DNA from: Owenia fusiformis
Taxonomy: Eukaryota > Annelida > Polychaeta > Sabellida > Oweniidae
Direction: 5' to 3'
DNA length: 64,000 bases
Assembly (NCBI GenBank): GCA_903813345.2
Contig: CAIIXF020000009.1
Location: 37,191,759 to 37,255,758 of the forward strand
Below are positions 4,201-61,364 of the stretch, one piece after another (within the stretch, counting starts at the first letter, position 1; every line of letters begins with the position of its first letter). Under the pieces are notes generated by a model. It had not been told where the DNA came from. It searched no databases and saw only the letters and a program-made list of their open reading frames with translations. Both the position numbers and the translations under genes were made by a program.

Positions 4201-7200
4201 CTTTCTTGATGCTCGATGCTACCAAACCATATGAGAATGGTGGAAATCATATTCCAATGTATAACTTCAATCCATTCTGAATGTACATTGTATTTGATGG
4301 TGTGACTCCTTACCTTATGGCTGCTGCACCAAGCAATGGAAGCAGCATTAGAGCAACAGAACGTTCAGGGGACCAGCAGTATGGAAGGTTGACCATATCA
4401 GACAACCAATATTCCAGAAATCTGAAATTATAAAAGTCATGATAATTATACATAAAGAACATCCCAAGCTAGGATGAGGTCATTGACACAGTTGTCTTGT
4501 CACTTTTCATGGAAAAAAATAAAAAGAGCATAGAGTCTTGCTTCACTTGTTGCAATTTACCTCATCACTAATTTAGACCTTGCTCTACACCATTCTAGCT
4601 AGGTCTAAATTGTAGCTAGGTCTAAATTGTAACTAGGTCTAAATTATAGCTAGGTCTAAATTGCAACTAGGTCTAAATTGTAGCTAGGTCAAAATTGTAA
4701 CTAGGTCTAAATTGTAGCTAGGTCTAAATTGTAACTAGGTCTAAATTGTAGCTAGGTCTAAATTGTAACTAGGTCTAAATTGTAGCTAGCTGCACACCGT
4801 ACACCATCAATCACCACTGTACATTATGAAATTACAATATGTACAGCTTTTCTTGGACCAACCTCTTGAGTTTGAGTTTTTAAAATAAGTATGACAATGG
4901 ATTTTCAGTAAATACAAACAAAGACCATATTCTGTCTCTCTGTCAGATACCATCTTGAAAATATGAACTCACCCTGTAACAGTGGAGACACCCTGCTGCA
5001 TCAGGAATCTGGTGAAAAACACCCACCTAAAGTCATGGTCTGAAAACAAAGCAACATTTAAACCAATGTAAAAAGCATATTTTAGAAAAATATGAAGGAT
5101 TTCATTTCAAGCAGAGATGCATATTTCTTTTTAAATGCCCCATTTTGAATTTAAAGGCCATTCAGAAATTCACTTTGAACAGAGATAAAGCATTTATCCT
5201 TTTTTAAAATTAAAGGCGCACTTTGGGAATTTTCAACATTTTTGGGCAAAATAAAGACATACATTTAAATTTCATAGTATGTCCAATGTGTTGATAAGAA
5301 CCTTATCTTTCATTTGACACCAACAACAGCTCAAATGGACCACAGCAAAGCTTATAATAAATGTCAAGCTTTATATACATGTATCAAGTTTTTATCAATG
5401 TCATTGAAAAGGATGGCAGAGTTGTTTGTATTACATGATACATTCATTTTTATAGAAGTTTCGCCATCTTTTAAATCGATAGTAATTTAAAACATGCTCT
5501 TTGTTTACATGTGCATGCATGTCTAATGATCTCTGAACTACAAATGCTTTTTTGACGTTTTTCTATGTGAGTTACTTTTTTCTTGGTTCAATATAAAAGC
5601 AAATCAAACTTTGTGTCACATTTGAGCTAGTGTATGAGTAACACGTTTCAATGACTACTTTTTTATTTTTCGTCTAAATTAAGTATAGTGCAGCTTTAAC
5701 CTAAGCTGGAATTCCTTTAGACTTTACAGTAGCCTAGACTGAGTTTAATTTCAATATTCTACCTTTTAAAGGCTCCCAATAGCCTTTTAAGATCTTCCTC
5801 CATTCTATGGGTTCGTGTATGGGTTTGGCTGGTTCCTCTGGTGTTGTGAACACTGTGATGAGTACAGTTATCACCACAACTCCTGTCACACACCCATAGA
5901 CACTGAATACACCCATTTGCTAGAAATACATGTACATCAATATACACTTGCACTATTTATCACAAACAAGTTACACTAAATGTTGTTCAAAAGAGAGTTT
6001 CTTTAGTAAACTTACTTCCATCATCAATATTGCGAATGAATTAATATTAAACAACTGAAATCTTGGGTAATATTATATTCATGGATAAGTTAACATTTTC
6101 AATTGATTCTCGATCACCTTGATGAAACTATGAGAAAATCCAAGAAATCTTAAACAATCAAAGTATATCTGTGGAATGTTTCCAATAATCTTACCAGGAA
6201 GAACAGTCCAACTGCAGCACCAGAAATGTTCCCAAAGAGGATCATGAAGCCCATGACACCTGAGTTGAGACCTGCGGAGAAAGAATTCATTATTTCACTT
6301 TATTTCAAGTTATTGTACAAACATAGGTGTAATCACCAATCACCAGGGTTAACATTCAGGGCAATTGTGGATTAAATGAAGAATTATTTTATTTGATTGT
6401 CACATTTTCAAATGCAAAATAGACTGAAAAGTCGAATATGCGAGGAATAAAGTACTATTCTAGTATACACATAAAGTCAGTATTCAAAATATTATTATCA
6501 TATAACTGCCAAAAACAAATAGATTTACATTACATACTCCATTCATTCAACTAAAGAAAGGAATGGATTGAAAAATGCAAAAGCACAGTGATATTCAGGC
6601 CCAAGGGCTCAGGAGTTAAAGTTCATTTTTACCTCTCTGTTCAGGTCTTGATTTATCAGCAATAAGAGCATTTAGAGGCACAGTGACACATGTGAAACAC
6701 GTGATAACAAGTAAGTAGAATCCGATATAGAGGCCTGAAAATATAGGGTTTTCATTATTGGAATGTATTGTAATATTATGTCTCGAATTAAGACGCAAAT
6801 AAGTAATACACACATGTACAATAGATACATATATAAGGGCTGTTTAAAATAAAATAACTTCTACTTATCATTGTCATACCAAGAAACATCCCTAGAAAAC
6901 TTTTCAAATCAATTTGTCAGGTGGTCATTTACTCATATACTCATTGTGTATCTCCTTTTCATAAAGGGCAATAAAGATATACATACAAACATGAGAAAAA
7001 TAAGACATCTTCACATCTTTTACTTCATGGGTGAATTAAACAAATGCAAAGCAAGTCAATGAAGACATGAATAGATGTGAATTAAAATTTCCCTCACCTA
7101 TATTTCCAAAGCGCTCCTCCTCAATCACATCAAAGTTGGTATCCTGACCACTTTTCTTATTAACTTCGGGGATATTTACGCCACCTTGTTGTTGAGGCAC

Positions 7201-45426: not shown

Positions 45427-45707
45427 TTGAAACTGCTAACATGACACAGCTGAGCAAGCAAATTGCTAAAGGAGTTGTTCTTGTTGCCGGATCAGTAATT
45501 GCTATTCCATACTCAATAGCAGTTCTTTGTAACATTTTGTATGGTTGGCCAACTGGGCCAGAGAAATACAAGAGAGCTTTACATCCTAAGAAAGTCTATG
45601 CATTGAACTATGCAATTTTACAACAATTTGGAAACTTACGATATGCAGAATTATTCTTTCGGTGGAAATATTTTTATTTCAATGCTTCATTATCTAGAGT
45701 TATCAAG
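45427..45707 (+). CDS. ICME-like exon with start codon (membrane anchor)
   Basis: The acceptor TATTTCAG ends at 45426; 14 nt of 5' UTR precede ATG at 45441. I prefer this start to the upstream ATG at 45282, which lies in the 200-nt intron 45227-45426. It encodes MTQLSKQIAKG, a hydrophobic VVLVAGSVIAIPYSIAVLCN segment (signal anchor) and a basic, aromatic linker to IK. The donor is GTAAGT, phase 0. Confidence 0.85.
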
Positions 45708-48700
45708 GTAAGTTTCAAAAAGTCTGATAAATATCATTATATAGCCCAATGCACCTGGCCTATTGCTGACAGATTGGTGGCAGAATTTGAATATGCACAT
45801 CTGCTGAATCATGAATTTTGATTATTTTGAGTGAATTCAACAATTTTTCTGAGAATGCATCCCACATATGAGGACTGTAAAAAAACCCTATTGTTTTTAT
45901 GTTAGATACTATCCTTCATCATTTTCAGTAAACTCTCTCACTTTCTGTTATGAAAAATACAATTCATGTTAGCCCATGAACACATTCATTTTATGTTTTC
46001 AGCTATTTTACTTGTAATTTTTCATTTTTTGCTATTTGTTTTCACATATGTCATTGCCATTGTCATACTCTAGGTCCTCTTGGTTTTCAAGAAATTGACA
46101 ATTGAAAAGGTCACAATTTGGCAAAAGTTCACTGTTAGGAGTGGATAGATATATTGATTGATTTCAGTAACTTTTAGTTGCAGGGGCTATGAGTTATATA
46201 GGGAAAACATTGGGCAATAGAGTAGATGCGAGATATACAAATATTCAAAATTCAGTCAAAGAAATGTCATATTTGAAATCTACAAGTAAAAGTACATCTA
46301 GAAATATGGTTTCAAAAATTGTTTATCAACTTTGAAATATTTTTTTTAAACTGTGACTTCTTGTTCTGGGAGATTCCCCATCGACCCCATTTTATAAAAT
46401 CACAAAAAGTGAAATATCTTTTCTTGTATTGAATATTTTCTTTTACTGGACATATTTTAATTTGTGTAACTATTAGATACGTAAGGGTGATATGAAAATC
46501 GAAACCGCATAGGGGAGGCATCAAAAGTTCGATGTCGGATAGAAAACTAAATAAATCTAGTTAGGGGGGAGGGGGTTCAAACCCATTTCAGTTTGCTATC
46601 CGACAAATTTCAACATTTCAAATTTTCGGCAATTTAGACTCAGAATGCCTTGGAATTGTTTTAAAAAAAGATTTTACCTGCTGCTTTCTTCGTCAAGATC
46701 ATTCTAAGTAGATGGATTCTATCAATAGTTGTTAAAAGCTACAAATTAGGTAGGAATTAACAAAAACTAGATCGTGTTTAGCGATGATTTTTCAAATTCT
46801 CAAACCGGAAGTCAGTGATCAACTTTCATGGTATTTAGTTTTGGGGGGAGGGGGGGGGTCAGAGTCAAAACTAGATTTATTTAGTTTCCGATCTGACATC
46901 GAACTTATGATGCCTCCCCTTAAACAGATGAATATTTAAGTTAAAGGGTACTTTCTACTATACCCGCCATGCTATCTGATCCGAACAAGCCATCTGGTGG
47001 TAAAACTGGTAACCATCTACTCGCATCTGAGTTATTGATGATCTCATTACAAAAAAACTGCCTCATTACAAAAATATAGAGGTCATTAACTGTGATAACA
47101 ATGGACAATGGGCACCCTTATGATCTTTACCATTATGGCTTTGCAGGTTTCATATTTGGGATGAATTTAAATTCAATTTTTCTAAGTTTTCATTTCAAAA
47201 CTGAACACGTAAAAACTCTTTTTGTAAATTACTATTTCCTCATCACTCATTTAATGTGTTTATTTACCTGAATTAACATTAACAAGCCCATTGAATATTA
47301 TTATAAATTAGGTATGAGTATTATATATTTATATTTGAGTTGTATTGACATAAATATACTGTATAATATTTGAATCTCCATTGGACTTAGCTCAGTTTTT
47401 CCTAGTTAAATACATTTATAACAGCTATGTAAATATTCATTAAATGTAAGTTCTAAACATAATTTAAATTATTTGTTATATTAATCATTGTATATTATTT
47501 TATCAGGAGACACTTTAACCTAATGTTTTCCTTATTTAGGATATTCCCTATGGTGTGAATGAAAATGCACTTGATGTGTATTTCCCACAAGGAAAGCCTA
47601 TGGGAAGTACGGAATTACTTCCTGTTGTTATTTTCGTCTATGGAGGAACATGGGGTAGCGGCAAGAAAACCATGTACCCATTGCTCTGTTCACACATATC
47701 TGATCGCCTTGGCTGTATCGTGGTCTGTCCTGGCTACTCAACCTACCCAAAGGTAACTTAAGTTAAACCTTTTTTGTTTTATATATTTGGTTTAGGACAT
47801 CAAGTACAGCCAAAATGATCGATTCTTGGACTTGTACTATCCTGCCGTGCCTTCAGACAGACCCCGCCCTGTTGTGATGTTTGTGTATGGGGGTGCTTGG
47901 GGGAGCGGGAATAAGAGCATGTATGGGCTTTTAGCAGCAAGCATTGCCGATAAGCTTAACGCAATAGTCTTATGTCCTAATTATTGCATACACCCGCAGG
48001 TAGATTTTAATGCATTGTTCTTATAAACGTTATTCATGGCTAGTTCAGTATTTCATTGTTCTTGTTGAATAATCAGTTTTTATGTCCTCACCACTAGTTG
48101 GTAACATTTTTTTTATTGTGACCAACTTTTTTGTAGACGGTGTTTGGTAGTTGGTGTTTGGTTTGCGATTGGTGTTTGACCTCTGTATCAAATGGCAGGT
48201 GGTGACATTTTGCATGTTAATGCCTTTTTCATTATTTGTTATCATATATATTTTTTGCTTTATTTTACCTAAATGTTTAGCTAACTTGGTGCATGGCTAT
48301 ATATATATTCCATCTAAATTCTTGTAGATGCAATGTATTGTTATTAATTACATAGGTTTTAGGCTGATATATACAGGGTGTCAAATGGCGTTGTACCCCC
48401 CTTCCACAGCATTAACTAGGAGAAGTACACATACATTATATATATCATTAGAAAGAACATTCAATTCTGGATAAGATGAACCCTAGATGACCAGGGTCAG
48501 ATATTGCTACAAAGTTTCATAAGCACTTGAAATGCACCAGTATAGTGCTATTTTTATTGATTTTTAAAAATTCCTGCATAGACCTTTTTGGTATTGGTGA
48601 ATACCCGAGCAACAACTCTGACTTAAATGCTTCAGTTCAAATTGAGCCCATATTAATGGATAAAACAGAGCTACTTATGGAAGTTGAAGCTGTAGAGAAC

Positions 48701-54700: not shown

Positions 54701-57700
54701 CCTTTTTAGAGGTCTGAATCATTTATTGATCACCCGACACCCTTTCAGCATGATTGATAAATAATTCCAGATTCATTCATCTTGTCCATTTTTCATCTAA
54801 GCAATGTTTATAGAGTTTATTTTCTATGAGGAATTGAGTATGACTTTTATACTGAGGGCAAATTTTCCAAGGCACAAAGAGAATTAAGGGAAATATCATA
54901 TAAACTGAGGTGTAAAACAAAAAAATTATTAGAATTTAGTCTCTTCTGTCCCACCAAAACTAATTCAAAATATTAAAGCATCTCAGAACAATAAAATGAG
55001 ACAAAATGTTTTAGCATTTCATTATTGCTACATAGTGAATATGAGTGACAGAATAATAGAATAAAGCAAGTCATCATGTTTCGCTTTTTTATAAAGGTCA
55101 GGCCCGTTACCAGGGGGGAACCCCCCCTGGCCAAAAATTCTTTCAAAATAATGCAGTTTTTCACCATTCTGAGCACTTTTTCAGTGATTTTGGCCATTTT
55201 TGGACCAAAATTGTGAAAAGTTAACCCCCCTGGAATTTTCCAAAAAGTGGAGGCCCCCTTGGCAAATCCTGGCTACAGGCCTGTAGGTGAACATCTTTGA
55301 AATTTGACCATAGTTGATATAATAGATACTGCCTAGCTGAATGAATGATCTCACCAAATGAGCTGTAAAGGAAATCATACCAACTGTTAGGTTAATAAGA
55401 TATCACATTCCAAAGGCCTTGAATTCTACCAAGAATTCTAACTTACTAATCATTGCTCCCTTCACGGAATGAATTTTACCAAGTATGAAGTACATGTATA
55501 CATGTATGTCGTTCACAAAGTATGATTTATTTGTATTTTTAGCTATAAATATTGCAGATTACAGATTTGACACCAATAGCTTGATGCGAAAACAGTTATC
55601 CATTATTTTTGTGAAAGTAGGTCATATTTGTATCCACATAATGTCATAAAGTGGTCATGCAAATATTTGTTTTATATGGTTATTTAGATGTCATTTTATA
55701 CATACTGTATACATAATAGGAATTTCTCATTTAACTCAAATCTATTTACTGAATGTGTGTATACCCCACCTGTTTTCTTAACTATTTTCCAGTTTCACCT
55801 GTTGTACCACTTTACTTCTCAATAGTAATAGATTCAAGTCCCAAAATAATTAAAATTGGATTTTTTATATTTTCTAACAATTAGCCTTGAATTTTCTGTC
55901 TACATCGTGGCAATTGTTGTATTGATTGTAATTAAGTTTTATTGTCATTTAATCCATGACTATCCAGTTTATTCCCATCTTTATAATTATTTCAGAATAT
56001 CGATCGGTATAATTTAATCGGTTTAATTTTTACTCTATTTCTTTGATGGCCAATTTTGTTAATTAGATCCATTATATGTTCATCCTCTAGAGTTCCCTAT
56101 ATGTTATGATGTCTTGTATTGTTGTCATTCTTCAGTTCACAGGTGTTGTAGGCTCAGTTCATCCTGTACTACAAGTTCCTGCGTCATTTCATCTCAAGCT
56201 CTGCAAAGGAGCATGTACATATGCAGTATAGTCTAGTGTATCATCTTCAACCTGTTCTGAGTTCTCTATTTTCAAATAACAGTTATTTTTGCAGTCAGTT
56301 TACGATTAACCTTGCTTTTGAGATGCCTTGAATGTACCTTTACATTGGGGTGCTGTCTTGTGCACAGCCTCGGAATTTATGGCATTAGCTAATTAGACCT
56401 TGTGAATAATAAAGTATTGCCATTTCTTGAGTCTGTGTATGAAACTGTATTCTGGTTTCAGGGTTTGGCTCATATATCAAATTGAACTGCAACAAATTCC
56501 TCTCAAAATCAGCTGCATGATCCGATCCCCGAGAGGGATATACATTTTAGTAGTCTTGTACAATTGCTAAGCTATTGATAAACTGCTGTCAACATTTCTC
56601 TTCAACAGAAGTTATTTCATTGTACATAAACTCATTATCTAATCAACTGATAATCTCATTTGTTGCTTTGCTAAGCGATGGGGAGAGTATACCAGAAGTG
56701 TAGAGTGATATAATGCCTATCCTCGATATTGCTGCTGATTTAATTAGTGGCTTAAAGGGGCAGTCAAGGATAAAGTTCTGAAAATTTTTCAAATCTTTTT
56801 GTTCACAATTGTTTTAAAATTTTTATAACTAAGGTCATAAGAGACATATTGCTATTTTAATTGAAGTGATTGCATCCAACATTTTATACTCTTTATCCTT
56901 TGTTGTTGTTTAAGCAAAACAAATTGAGCAAACATTTTGGCCTATCACTCCTTTAAGAATTTAGCTTCAACCATTTTCATTTTCAAACAACTTGATCCAA
57001 AATATTGAAATTTCTCGATCACATTTTTATAATAAACCATGTTCTAGAAACAATAATTACCCAGCATTTTATGTTTCCATAAAGAACCCTTTAAAACCTA
57101 TAATATTTTCTTCTGTTTTCATTCAGGCTAGTATAATAAGGTCATATAAGAATTTAATTAATGAACTGCCACAAAAAGATTAATCGTAACATGGAATGGT
57201 AATTTAGAGCAATTATACAACAAAGCAAACACAACATTCCCATTGCTAGAGTTCTATAGAAGTTTGTTCAATAATGGTGCATAAATATCCTTGAGGGAGC
57301 TTGAAGATGTAATAAACCTGTTTTACTTGATTTGTAGATTATGTTTATACTACCTTACTGTATGAAGACCACACTTTACGATGGCGAACCATCAACGCTT
57401 TCAAATGTTTATTTTGTCATTGTTGGGGATATAAAGTCAGCAGATACCTGTTTTCATGACAATCTGATTTCAACTTAACAACAACTTTGTCACGTCACAG
57501 TAAGTGACACGAATTTAAAATGATGCATCTAGGCCAATTTGATTTATTTTGTAAAGGGTGTATCAGTTAAGTGAGTAAATCAAACAAGTCCTCTCTTGTA
57601 ATTTGAGGGCTATTTGGATTATATGATGTGGAACATGGTCCTTTCTTGATCATATTATGCTTTTGTAATTCCAGGGCTATGTGGATGATATGATGTGGAA

Positions 57701-60700
57701 CATGGTCCTTTCTTGATCATATTATACTCTTGTAATTCCAGGGCTATGTGGATGATATGATGTGGAACATGGTCCTTTCTTGATCATATTATGCTCTTGT
57801 AATTCCAGGGCTATGTGGATGATATGATGTGGAACATGGTCCTTTCTTGATCATATTATACTCTTGTAATTCCATTGCTATGTGGATGATATGATGTGGA
57901 ACATGGTCCTTTCTCTTGTAATTCCAGGGCTATGTGGATGATATGATGTGGAACATGGTCCTTTCTCTTGTAATTCCAGGGCTATGTGGATGATATGATG
58001 TGGAACATGGTCCTTTCTTGATCATATTATACTCTTGTAATTCCAGGGCTATGTGGATGATATGATGTGGAACATGGTCCTTTCTTGATCATATTATGCT
58101 CTTGTAATTCCAGGGCTATGTGGATGATATGATGTGGAACATGGTCCTTTCTTGATCATATTATACTCTTGTAATTCCATTGCTATGTGGATGATATGAT
58201 GTGGAACATGGTCCTTTCTCTTGTAATTCCAGGGCTATGTGGATGATATGATGTGGAACATGGTCCTTTCTCTTGTAATTCCAGGGCTATGTGGATGATA
58301 TGATGTGGAACATGGTCCTTTCTTGATCATATTATACTCTTGTAATTCCAGGGCTATGTGGATGATATGATGTGGAACATGGCCCTTTCTTGATCATATT
58401 ATGCTCTTGTAATTCCAGGGCTATGTGGATGATATGATGTGGAACATGGTCCTTTCTTGATCATATTATACTCTTGTAATTCCAGGGCTATGTGGATGAT
58501 ATGATGTGGAACATGGTCCTTTCTTGATCATATTATACTCTTGTAATTCCAGGGCTATGTGGATGATATGATGTGGAACATGGTCCTTTCTTGATCATAT
58601 TATGCTCTTGTAATTCCAGGGCTATGTGGATGATATGATGTGGAACATGGTCCTTTCTTGATCATATTATACTCTTGTAATTCCAGGGCTATGTGGATGA
58701 TATGATGTGGAACATGGTCCTTTCTCTTGTAATTCCAGGGCTATGTGGATGATATGATGTGGAACATGGTCCTTTCTTGATCATATTATACTCTTGTAAT
58801 TCCAGGGCTATGTGGATGATATGATGTGGAACATGGTCCTTTCTTGATCATATTATACTCTTGTAATTCCAGGGCTATGTGGATGATATGATGTGGAACA
58901 TGGTCCTTTCTTGATCATATTATGCTCATGTCATTCCAGGGCTATGTGGATGATATGATGTGGAACATGGTCCTTTCTTGATCATATTATACTCTTGTAA
59001 TTCCAGGGCTATGTGGATGATATGATGTGGAACATGGTCCTTTCTTGATCATATTATGCTCTTGTAATTCCATTGCTATGTGGATGATATGATGTGGAAC
59101 ATGGTCCTTTCTTGATCATATTATGCTCTTGTAATTCCAGGGCTATGTGGATGATATGATGTGGAACATGGTCCTTTCTTGATCATATTATGCTCTTGTA
59201 ATTCCAGGGCTATGTGGATGATATGATACAGGATATTGTTGACTGTATGACATGGGTACAAGATGACATAGAAAAATTTGGCGGAAATAAGGTACTGCGC
59301 ATTATGTAATTTTTTGTTCACGTGCTTGTTTTAGTCACCATCTAAACAAAGAAAGTTTACTCTAACAATGATTTGGTCTTAAAAAAGAAGAATCCATTAT
59401 CACTTTACATATCGAATTAATTTTCATGTATAAGAAACAGTAAAAGAATGTGGAATTTCAACTTATTCTCATGTAATGCTCAGATGTAATTTTAATTAGG
59501 ATAAAGTTAGGTGTAGACAGGAATTGATATTTTCAAATAATTACAATTTTCAGCAAAATCTGATTCTGTTGGGCCACTCTGCTGGTGCCCACCTTTGTGT
59601 GATGTCCGTGCTGGAACTAGTAATGAAACGCCTGGCACATGATATACCCCTGCCAAAGTTCAGCACACCTGGCATACCTGGACGCCTTCCTCCCAGCACA
59701 GTCCGTCAGACGAACTCTGAATCAATTCACTTTGAAGACCAGTATTTCAATGGTGATAATGATACCAATGATGAGGGTGAAGATAGGCCAGTTGATAAGA
59801 AGGACAGCTCTGGGTCATCTCAAAGTGATTTTCTTGTCTTAGATGATAAAGATGAAGAATCGTCCTCTTCCACAGCAAAAAGGCTGCAAAGTATAGAAAG
59901 TGGTACTTCTAGTATAGAACAGTTAGATCTAAGTGCTAGTATGACAGAGACTCTAGCAGCAGACACAAGCCAACTGGCTTCAACAACATCATCTTTCATT
60001 CTTCTAGAACCTGAAAAAGATGATAACAACATGGGTCAAGACCCTGAGAAAGATGTATTCACAGGACATGATGAGGACAAACCCAAGGAGGAGGAAAACT
60101 CATCAGATGATGTAGATAATCAAGATGTTTCATTACTAACAGAGACAAAAGATCAAGGTGAACAGAGGGATGAGGATCAAGGAGGCGGTGACAATGGAGA
60201 GAGTACTTCTGACCCTTCTGAGCACACAACGCCACCTATTATAGTCCAAGCTGCCACACCACTTACTGAGACAGGAGGGATGTCAGCTATGGGAGAGGCC
60301 TCATGCAGTGAACAACCTCTTGTTGATGCCTTGTCCTCAGTAAAAGCTGTTATAGGTAAGAGTTCTAATGCCACTTGGATTTATGAAATGCAACATCAAT
60401 ATTTACATTGGCACCATGTTAAATGCCATAAATTGTATGTACAGTAATGTGATATTAACAATATTTGATAGTTTTGGAAAGCTGCATTTTTTCAGCAGTT
60501 TTACAAATGGTAAATTCTGATAAAAAGATGGCATGAGAGCCTGAACAAAAACTAACGGAAAACAAAATTTTATCAAAATTAACATTTTGTTTAGTATGAG
60601 TGTATGAGAAAAAAAAACTAAATTATGGTGAATGTTAGCCTAATATGACTTGCAATCCATGCATTAAACAAGAATATTTGTTTTTTATTTAGGATTAGCA

Positions 60701-61364
60701 GGTGTCTACCATATAGGGGACCATTATAAACATGAGATGTATCGTGGTGTAGAAGATATCTCTACCATGGGGAAAGCTATGTATGGTCCTGAACATTTTG
60801 ATAGATTCTCTCCTACTACTATAGTTGAACGTCTTGATAACACTATTAGGTTAGTATGCAAATATGTTAAAATCGCAGAGGTGTCATTTAGTTAAAAGGC
60901 TGGTTCCTTGGTTTCAATCCTGGGAAAAAATTTGAATGTAATGGGATCCCTTGATTTTTGAATGTCTTAAAACATTTTGGTTATATTACAATGTGCCACT
61001 ATTTTCTCACAATTATTAGATGAACAGTCCCTGTATCACATAGTGAAATGTGTGATAACTGATATTTTGAGATATTTTTTGCAAATGTTTAAAACAGTTA
61101 TGTTTTATTTCCAGTCTCCCAATGATGGTACTTGTACATGGTTCCACAGACACAACAGTGCCTGTTTCCTCGACTACAAAATTCGCAGATGCTTTGTCAA
61201 ATACATCAACTAACGTCACTACCCAGATCTTGCCAAATTGTTCGCATACGGACATATGTATGGACCTAATGTCTTCAAAACGTGGTTTCCATGATCCTGT
61301 GATGAGAGTAATTGTTGAAACAGCTCAAAGAGTTTTGCATGACAAATATTTTCTAAAAATGTGA
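45441..61364 (+). CDS. Isoprenylcysteine alpha-carbonyl methylesterase-like alpha/beta-hydrolase (gene span)
   Basis: Coding exons 45441-45707, 47540-47752 (or 47796-47999), 59208-59291, 59554-60355, 60693-60849 and 61115-61364 join to 1773 nt, or 590 residues (587 with the alternative exon). An N-terminal membrane segment (about 10-33) is followed by a hydrolase fold: YGGTW oxyanion region (123-127), FGGNK, nucleophile Ser197 in GHSAG (195-199), acid Asp520 in HGSTDTTVP and His552 in CSHTD. ICMEs of plants share the GGAW, FGG, SAGAH and HGTDD pattern and remove the methyl ester from prenylated C-terminal cysteine. The enzyme role here is by family resemblance. About 220 acidic, Ser-rich residues (about 222-445) are inserted between the nucleophile and the Asp. 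Introns hold a nested patatin gene and a splice-site minisatellite. Confidence 0.85.
46511..46920. mobile_element. 410-bp MITE with 50-bp inverted ends
   Basis: The ends AGGGGAGGCATCAAAAGTTC and GATGTCGGATAGAAAACTAA are mirrored at 46870-46920. Each end is followed inward by a G-rich run (GGGGGGAGGGGG). No certain target duplication. It is in the intron after the first coding exon of the ICME-like gene. Confidence 0.75.
47540..47752 (+). CDS. ICME-like exon 2a (one of a mutually exclusive pair)
   Basis: 71 codons, phase 0 at both ends, acceptor TTATTTAG, donor GTAACT. It encodes DIPYGVNENALDVYFPQGKP and VVIFVYGGTWGSGKKTMYPL, ending CPGYSTYPK. The YGGTWGSGKK segment is the oxyanion-hole loop. 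It is homologous to exon 2b just downstream, with which it cannot usefully be combined. Confidence 0.87.
47796..47999 (+). CDS. ICME-like exon 2b (alternative copy)
   Basis: 68 codons, phase 0 at both ends, acceptor TTGGTTTAG, donor GTAGAT. It encodes DIKYSQNDRFLDLYYPAVPS and VVMFVYGGAWGSGNKSMYGL, ending CPNYCIHPQ. It aligns with exon 2a along its whole length with a 3-residue gap and about half the residues identical. The frame is intact and substitutions respect the fold, so it looks functional rather than a dead duplicate. Confidence 0.82.
48079..48235 (-). repeat. Dispersed repeat family, copy 3 (inverted)
   Basis: Read on the minus strand it runs GCATTAACATGCAAAATGTC, CCATTTGATACAGAGGTCAA, then CAAACACCAA-rich core and a GTGAGGACATAAAA end. 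It is colinear with 7512-7640. The core TTTGGTGTTTGG is an imperfect microsatellite. Confidence 0.5.
48374..49005. mobile_element. TA-flanked mariner-like element, 632 bp
   Basis: The ends are CAGGGTGTCAAATGGCGTTG and its exact inverse CAACGCCATTTGACACCCTG, each flanked by TA. The end sequence and TA target fit Tc1/mariner relatives. The 72-codon frame inside (48527-48745) is not a transposase I recognise, so it is probably non-autonomous or decayed. Confidence 0.82.
49473..50344. mobile_element. hAT-like non-autonomous element, about 872 bp
   Basis: The terminal inverted repeats are CAGTGTTCGCG and, inverted, CAGTGTTCACATTG, a typical hAT end. Near each end is a GTCCCAGGGAC palindrome (about 49504 and 50254). 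An AATTATGTATGTA sequence occurs on both flanks, but a strict 8-bp duplication was not established. Confidence 0.6.
50364..50586. mobile_element. Possible small MITE with ATTATTACCACC ends
   Basis: ATTATTACCACC at 50364 and GGTGGTAATAAT at 50575-50586 are inverse. Just to the right (50591-50646) an AATAACGTCATTTC...GAAATGACGTTATT hairpin follows. The status of both is uncertain. Confidence 0.35.
51357..52448. mobile_element. Element with ATCCCAACGAAC ends and 461-bp direct repeats
   Basis: It begins ATCCCAACGAACGAAGTTCG and ends GTTCGTTGGGAT. After a CCGT tandem run (51408-51435), a block beginning CTTTAAAAATG-CGGGAC is present twice, at 51440 and 51901, almost identical. The right end is 33 bp from the stop codon of the patatin gene, so it sits in or next to that gene's 3' UTR. 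Confidence 0.7.
52481..53880 (-). CDS. Patatin-like gene exon 2 (catalytic and EF-hand domains)
   Basis: The acceptor follows TTGTTTCTAG. The 1400-nt exon encodes residue 76 onward and ends STSEFFK with TAA at 52483-52481. All catalytic motifs and both EF-hands are in this one exon, which could mean an origin as an intron-poor or retroposed gene. Confidence 0.9.
52481..54525 (-). CDS. EF-hand patatin-like phospholipase, N-myristoylation signal (gene span)
   Basis: Exons 54525-54300 and 53880-52481 join in phase to 1626 nt, 541 residues. The start MGASNSK fits the N-myristoylation consensus (Gly2, Ser6, Lys7) and is followed by about 75 polar residues. The patatin core has GGGNKG (107-112, anion hole), GSSAG with nucleophile Ser138 (136-140) and DGG with catalytic Asp279. 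Two EF-hand loops follow: D395-E406 (DIDGSDTVNINE) and D438-E449 (DINNDGEISFHE, canonical). Patatin enzymes use a Ser-Asp dyad to release fatty acids from lipids. A calcium-sensing, membrane-anchored lipase is my inference. The gene lies antisense inside an intron of the ICME-like gene and has one small intron itself. Confidence 0.88.
54300..54548 (-). CDS. Patatin-like gene exon with start codon
   Basis: The acceptor TTTTTCCAG gives an exon starting at 54548, with 23 nt of 5' UTR and ATG at 54525-54523. It encodes MGASNSKTNK, then an acidic polar region to TTQS, donor GTAAGT. An upstream non-coding exon must exist but was not located. Confidence 0.85.
55099..55283. mobile_element. MITE, CAGGCCCGTAGCCAGG family, copy 2
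   Basis: The ends are CAGGCCCGTTACCAGG and CCTGGCTACAGGCCTG. The flanks AAGGT and TAGGT are a decayed 5-bp duplication. The internal TTTTTCACCATTCTGAGCAC is shared with copy 1 at 2277-2472. Confidence 0.78.
55284..57600. other. Intron of the ICME-like gene, few features
   Basis: AT-rich. The only structure I see is a possible 207-bp element at 56751-56957. No exon fits the flanking phase 0 exons. Confidence 0.5.
56751..56957. mobile_element. Possible MITE with CTTAAAGG ends
   Basis: CTTAAAGGGGCAGTCAAGGA on the left and an imperfect inverse ending TATCACTCCTTTAAG on the right. Weak but of a common type. Confidence 0.4.
57608..59207 (+). repeat. Minisatellite built from a 3' splice site (67/52-bp units, about 25 copies)
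   Basis: Each 67-bp unit contains the last 47 nt of the intron (ending CTCTTGTAATTCCAG) and the first 20 nt of the next exon (GGCTATGTGGATGATATGAT). A 52-bp variant lacks 15 nt. Unit exon-starts fall at 57675, 57742, 57809, 57876, 57928, 57980, 58047 and so on to 59141, then the real exon at 59208. Three copies (57876, 58181, 59074) have CCATT instead of CCAGG and have lost the AG. A 305-bp block of five units is itself repeated (57742 and 58047). A decayed left-edge unit lies at 57608. Confidence 0.96.
59208..59291 (+). CDS. ICME-like exon 3
   Basis: 28 codons, phase 0 at both ends: GYVDDMIQDIVDCMTWVQDD then IEKFGGNK. ICME relatives have a D-M-x-x-D-x-x-x-x-x-x-x-V...FGG pattern here. Its first 20 nt are the part amplified in the minisatellite; the frame departs from the repeat at GATACAG. 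Confidence 0.87.
59554..60355 (+). CDS. ICME-like exon 4 (nucleophile elbow and acidic insert)
   Basis: It encodes residues 189-455, beginning QNLILLGHSAGAHLCVMSVL with the catalytic Ser197. From about residue 222 the sequence becomes low-complexity: Asp, Glu, Ser, Thr and Gln with short acidic runs (DKDEESSSS, DKPKEEENSSDD). It ends ALSSVKAVI at a phase-1 donor. The acidic insert is absent from plant relatives and probably forms a flexible loop outside the fold. Confidence 0.87.
60693..60849 (+). CDS. ICME-like exon 5
   Basis: It encodes GLAGVYHIGDHYKHEMYRGV, then MYGPEHFDRFSPTTIVERLD. ICMEs share the SGVYN...H...RG pattern and FSP. The split codons agree on both sides (G|GA and AG|T). Confidence 0.87.
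61115..61364 (+). CDS. ICME-like terminal exon (catalytic Asp and His)
   Basis: It encodes LPMMVLVHGSTDTTVPVSST with the acid Asp520, and ILPNCSHTDICMD with His552. It ends DKYFLKM and TGA at 61362-61364. The acceptor is TTTATTTCCAG. Confidence 0.88.

Follow-up and report, generated by a model that had tools for sequence, protein, structure and literature searches.

Two homologous exons encoding the oxyanion-hole segment of an ICME-like hydrolase in the annelid Owenia fusiformis are probably spliced as mutually exclusive alternatives

The window, a 64,000-nucleotide stretch of the Owenia fusiformis genome, carries a gene for a putative alpha/beta hydrolase in which the exon for the oxyanion-hole segment is present twice, as adjacent homologous exons 2a and 2b that are only 43 nt apart. 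Mutually exclusive splicing of these two exons is the best reading of the locus and, judged from its sequence, a highly probable one. The two proteins so made would have different pocket walls, and whether their chemistry differs as well is a separate and considerably less certain matter that is taken up below.

The gene is on the plus strand of contig C9 of the 498-Mb genome, where it extends from a start codon at position 45441 to a stop codon at 61364 of the window; its boundaries were set from open frames and GT/AG ends. The coding part of exon 1 (45441–45707) has 89 codons beginning with the start codon, includes what appears by eye to be a hydrophobic N-terminal stretch, and ends in phase 0 at a strong donor (AAG/GTAAGT). 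Exon 2a (47540–47752, 213 nt) contains the motif YGGTWGSGKK and exon 2b (47796–47999, 204 nt) the parallel motif YGGAWGSGNK, and both are phase 0-0. The gap between them (47753–47795) begins with GT and finishes with AG. When re-read from the sequence, the exon coordinates, phases, open frames, and motifs, as well as the 43-nt separation, proved to be just as the original prediction gave them. Exon 3 (59208–59291, 84 nt) belongs to both predicted forms and ends at the donor AAG/GTACTG. Exon 4 (59554–60355) encodes the nucleophile motif GHSAGAH and then a long insert rich in serine and acidic residues, exon 5 occupies 60693–60849, and exon 6 (61115–61364) encodes HGSTD and SHTD and ends with the stop codon. 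The protein would be 590 amino acids long with 2a and 587 with 2b. The lengths of exons 2a and 2b are both multiples of three and the reading frame would survive whether both were included or both skipped, so exclusion through frame or NMD is ruled out. An exclusion of the U12 type is likewise ruled out, since the donors (GTAAGT, GTAACT, and GTAGAT) are U2-like when set against the U12 consensus.

The predicted product is an alpha/beta hydrolase of the BD-FAE/Abhydrolase_3 kind. Its likeness to ICME is a lead that comes from the described features of those enzymes. Both isoforms exceed the curated cut-offs of four families with similar scores, namely BD-FAE (74.6 bits with 2a and 80.1 bits with 2b; cut-off 26.8), COesterase (56.3 and 58.1), Abhydrolase_3 (54.3 and 52.5), and Peptidase_S9. 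The exons by themselves fall below the BD-FAE cut-off (21.3 for 2a and 25.8 for 2b), and a genome search with this profile at E ≤ 0.1 recovered 2b and missed 2a. The best NCBIfam match is esterase LipQ, at 68.7 (2a) and 62.8 (2b) bits, far under the LipQ cut-off of 700. The solved chains that were matched include an esterase, a carboxylesterase, an acetylcholinesterase, and a kynurenine formamidase; according to the available part of a published account (PMC5171882), one branch unites animal kynurenine formamidases with plant ICME and a bacterial HGGG esterase. In alignments to solved esterases, YGG[T/A]WGSG lies over FGGGW or HGGGF stretches and GHSAGAH over GxSAG, which supports the earlier assignment of exon 2 as the oxyanion-hole strand. 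The GXSXG nucleophile is followed by Asp and His in that order (GHSAGAH, HGSTD, and SHTD), and the last two motifs are the probable sites of the acid and the histidine of the triad, as assigned from the motifs. The acidic, serine-rich insert in exon 4 is about 230 residues long and separates the nucleophile elbow from the conserved stretch that follows; none of the Pfam families at E ≤ 1 places its best stretch within the insert.

The two exons are clearly homologous to one another, as had been claimed. A protein search of the Owenia genome with 2a as query found only 2a and 2b (2b with an E value of 7.0e-16) at E ≤ 10, and the reciprocal search with 2b found only 2b and 2a (2a at 5.7e-16). 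Values of this size genome-wide rule out chance similarity, and neither search of the 498 Mb turned up a third copy of the exon at that threshold. A protein-pattern scan with the 2b form had no match in viral_contigs and four in genome_contigs, none of them a relative. A search of the assembly for COX1 was also negative. The pair is identical at 35 of 68 aligned codons (51%) in protein and 52% identical in DNA, and identity at the three codon positions is 57%, 69%, and 29%, respectively.

This identity is unevenly distributed along the pair, with 9 of 24 residues identical in the N-terminal stretch, 17 of 22 in the oxyanion core, and 9 of 22 in the C-terminal stretch. With conservation highest in the core, either form looks competent for catalysis, and the differences between them appear to lie mostly around the pocket. 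The GGA motif of plant ICME is present in 2b (YGGAW), and 2a has GGT in its place (YGGTW). A difference in substrate range between the two forms, as suggested in the original prediction, is plausible, and it is a reasonable expectation even though the odds are somewhat against it. A slightly stronger candidate, whose chances we would put not far below even, is that the exons are used singly for regulation, stability, or folding and that the chemistry is unchanged. Such a role would accord with the strong conservation of the core, and what argues against it is that identity within the pair has fallen to 51% and that the T/A difference falls inside the pocket motif itself. It competes with a difference in substrate and not with exclusive splicing.

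Several features of the pair bear on whether both exons have been in use. The proportions of silent and replacement differences between them are 0.94 (pS) and 0.35 (pN), and a pS of this size means that the silent sites are saturated; 24 of the 33 identical residues that have degenerate codons are encoded by a different codon in 2a than in 2b. Neutral decay was simulated by allowing one copy silent changes only while the other was free to change, at five mutation levels and with either exon as the start (2000 runs per level and start, 20,000 in total; gaps were not modelled). None of the 20,000 runs jointly matched the observed identity, codon change, and absence of stops. Thus neutral decay is rejected for 2a and 2b alike, and neither can have been free to drift since they were duplicated. 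The absence of stops is by itself a weak sign of function, as neutral decay in a single lineage leaves 9% and 13% of copies stop-free at 52% identity. A very recent loss of use of one copy would escape these tests.

These results weigh against the idea that one exon, most likely 2b to judge from the splice sites, is a relic or is too seldom used to matter. The donor and acceptor of 2b are indeed rather weak, at the 12.5th and 16th percentiles of 32 reference introns and so on the weak side but within the range, and those of 2a are at the 31st and 28th percentiles. Regulated exons commonly have weak splice sites, and from its own sites 2b could be rarely used. Against its being a relic, however, are the failure of the neutral simulations for either copy, the retention in 2b of the GGA pocket motif of plant ICMEs, and a BD-FAE score above that of 2a, and we consider it improbable. 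With both copies under constraint, as the simulation and the comparable scores of the isoforms against the same families indicate, and with the two homologous exons adjacent and in the same phase, the locus has several of the features expected of a mutually exclusive pair.

The spacer between the exons also bears on how they would be spliced. Spliced introns near 43 nt occur in some animals. In ten dynein heavy-chain stretches of the Owenia genome, the 32 resolved introns range from 117 to 489 nt, with a median of 294.5. Estimates from adjacent exons gave a minimum of 117 nt for 52 dynein heavy-chain pairs and 126 nt for 43 myosin pairs, although in 12 of the latter a single downstream exon is paired with copies in an array of alternative exons, and these do not count as separate introns; the survey covers two families of large genes. 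Unrecognized short introns within exon matches would appear as codons in excess of the profile positions. The largest such excess among 92 myosin matches is five codons, and one of 80 dynein matches (C7:14235877-14236122) has 21, the next being eight. This segment is open throughout and its internal GT...AG pairs are without a GTRAG donor, so it is best taken as a coding insert, although it could conceivably hide an in-frame intron of 39–90 nt. As far as sequence can tell, then, a 43-nt spacer in a genome whose resolved introns are at least 117 nt long would act as a device against joining 2a to 2b.

The content of the spacer points the same way. Apart from the terminal AG, its adenines are at positions 3, 4, 8, 9, 13, 14, 15, 29, 31, and 33, with an AG at 9–10 and a pyrimidine-rich run after it. 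Since the last of these adenines is at position 33, any branch point for 2b that lies inside the spacer comes no more than 33 nt after the donor of 2a, and the proposed steric limit for the distance from donor to branch point is about 50 nt (PMC7969005, from the part of that paper available). A branch point might instead lie within exon 2a, yet one there would be useless for joining 2a to 2b. If the spacer were retained, its third codon would be a stop. Constitutive inclusion of both exons, which would put two consecutive oxyanion-hole segments in the protein, is very improbable, because the GT...AG ends of the spacer and the preserved frame that would permit it are outweighed by an intron length far under the 117-nt minimum, by candidate branch points so near the donor, and by the fit of either single-copy isoform to the BD-FAE profile in one stretch (positions 1–115), which leaves a second copy surplus. 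At the level of sequence, the earlier proposal of mutual exclusion by the tiny gap is well supported, by a spacer much smaller than the introns measured in this genome and shorter than the donor to branch point limit, together with the rejection of neutral decay.

An imperfect inverted repeat (47702–47717 and 47805–47820; 16 nt, 81% complementary) links the end of 2a to the start of 2b and folds into an imperfect stem of 18 bp that encloses the 43-nt gap; it was spotted after the fact. The fold of 47695–47830, a stretch also chosen after the fact, has a z score of −2.55 (3 of 200 shuffles were as good), and over the full 460 nt the fold does not stand out (z −0.65, equalled by 29 of 100 shuffles). 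Because the stem was picked post hoc and the larger stretch is unremarkable, an RNA stem between 2a and 2b carries little weight.

A further feature lies at the acceptor of exon 3. A minisatellite with 67- and 52-nt units (57593–59227, plus strand) contains 25 copies, 21 of them exact, of the exon 3 acceptor and the first 20 nt of the exon. Only the last copy continues into exon 3 and is the real acceptor; in the remaining 24 a stop closes the frame 13 or 21 codons on. Exon 3 is thus preceded by 24 decoy 3′ splice sites, and its own donor is weak, scoring under all 32 reference donors. In a genome search with part of the minisatellite, which skipped very common words, all ten of the matches fell inside this same array.

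Mutually exclusive use of 2a and 2b can be accounted for as follows. The exon for the oxyanion-hole segment would long ago have been duplicated in tandem to give 2a and 2b, and both copies would have been retained under purifying selection. The spacer would be too short for the 2a 5′ splice site and the 2b branch point to be engaged together, and transcripts would be spliced 1-2a-3 or 1-2b-3 but never 1-2a-2b-3. The products would be two hydrolases that have a common N-terminal anchor, nucleophile, acid, and histidine and that differ in the walls of the pocket, both presumably active and perhaps differing in substrate or rate. In its most complete form, this account has one gene encode two serine hydrolases that prefer different substrates, by a swap of the whole oxyanion module, with exclusivity hard-wired by the too-short spacer such that the 2a donor and the 2b acceptor compete as a shared splice unit, possibly aided by the 18-bp stem; taken as a whole it is tentative, and a shade less probable than the difference in substrate by itself. 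If confirmed, it would extend active-site exon swapping to the ICME-like/BD-FAE esterases, with the oxyanion hole borne on the swapped module, and it would provide two naturally occurring enzymes whose sole difference is that module. It would also be a clean case for the steric limit on splicing, the entire spacer being shorter than the proposed donor to branch point limit.

Similar arrangements were sought elsewhere in the genome. Among 43 BD-FAE matches, none on the same strand and with the same profile stretch were closer together than 5.7 kb, in a search that is a weak test for such pairs, having missed exon 2a itself. At C3:26372088-26378089, one strand carries weak matches to a single profile stretch at a spacing of 5.7 kb, and at C7:38738252-38790276 three more on one strand are spaced by at least 17 kb. 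These repeated matches are taken for tandem genes but may instead be additional alternative exons. On the same contig as the window and about 0.73 Mb past it, a minus-strand myosin heavy chain gene (G000:C9:37985800-37994700), of muscle type by our reading, has 14 tandem homologous matches of a motor-domain exon (one of them short) whose identity to the query copy is 50–83%. Annelids are known to have clustered alternative Mhc exons (PMC3912159, as far as its available text goes).

The remodelling of an enzyme core by a homologous exon pair is well established, and a published case has its counterpart in this same genome. In the accessible portion of PMC7434440, the coq-2 exon pair is described as mutually exclusive in helminths, annelids, and molluscs, where it switches the product of the enzyme. 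A coq-2-like pair, identified here from its place and likeness, is found at G000:C2:21736600-21743400 (positions 1986–2123 and 5616–5756 of that stretch), and its two exons are 49% identical (E 8.4e-13 within the 6.8-kb stretch) and about 3.5 kb apart. By the rhodoquinone switch of PMC7434440, this pair suggests that the animal can make rhodoquinone. Exons 2a and 2b resemble coq-2 exons 6a and 6e of nematodes, flatworms, annelids, and molluscs in being homologous exons that replace an enzyme core, and the two pairs have diverged to a similar degree in this genome. On the other hand, coq-2 is a polyprenyltransferase and not a hydrolase, and its product switch was shown by exon removal, whereas any switch by the hydrolase pair is a prediction. 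The coq-2 exons, at about 3.5 kb from one another, are also unlike those with the 43-nt spacer, so their exclusion cannot rest on a tiny gap.

Among the hydrolases, the nearest described enzymes are Arabidopsis ICME and ICME-LIKE (PMC3017835). According to the available parts of that paper, they belong to the common esterase/lipase superfamily, have GXSXG, the Ser-Asp-His order, the GGA pocket motif (as in 2b), and more than 400 residues, and, like the hydrolase here, are without a classical oxyanion sequence. The Owenia protein differs from Arabidopsis ICME in its long acidic insert after the nucleophile, in the GGT of 2a, and in having HSA for QSA. Alternative exons are not mentioned in those parts of PMC3017835, and literature searched at the title and abstract level, with subscription journals mostly outside it, contained no description of mutually exclusive exons in the ICME-like/BD-FAE hydrolase family. 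Active-site exon swapping is thus already known from coq-2 and others, and for this family of hydrolases none was found in the literature searched.

Two other systems are instructive. The gate-domain exons of human ACSL6 are also alternative and change the substrate gate, in this case of an acyl-CoA synthetase (PMC1543647, available text). Exons 4a and 4b of OGDH are likewise either-or exons in an enzyme, kept exclusive by branch points that in human are 25–41 nt from the upstream donor (PMC7969005, within the portion accessible). The OGDH spacer is 118–131 nt long in birds and mammals versus 43 nt between 2a and 2b, and the OGDH swap alters calcium sensing, whereas that of 2a and 2b would cover the oxyanion hole. 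When the spacing logic of OGDH is applied to the 43-nt spacer, transcripts of the form 1-2a-3 or 1-2b-3 are predicted.
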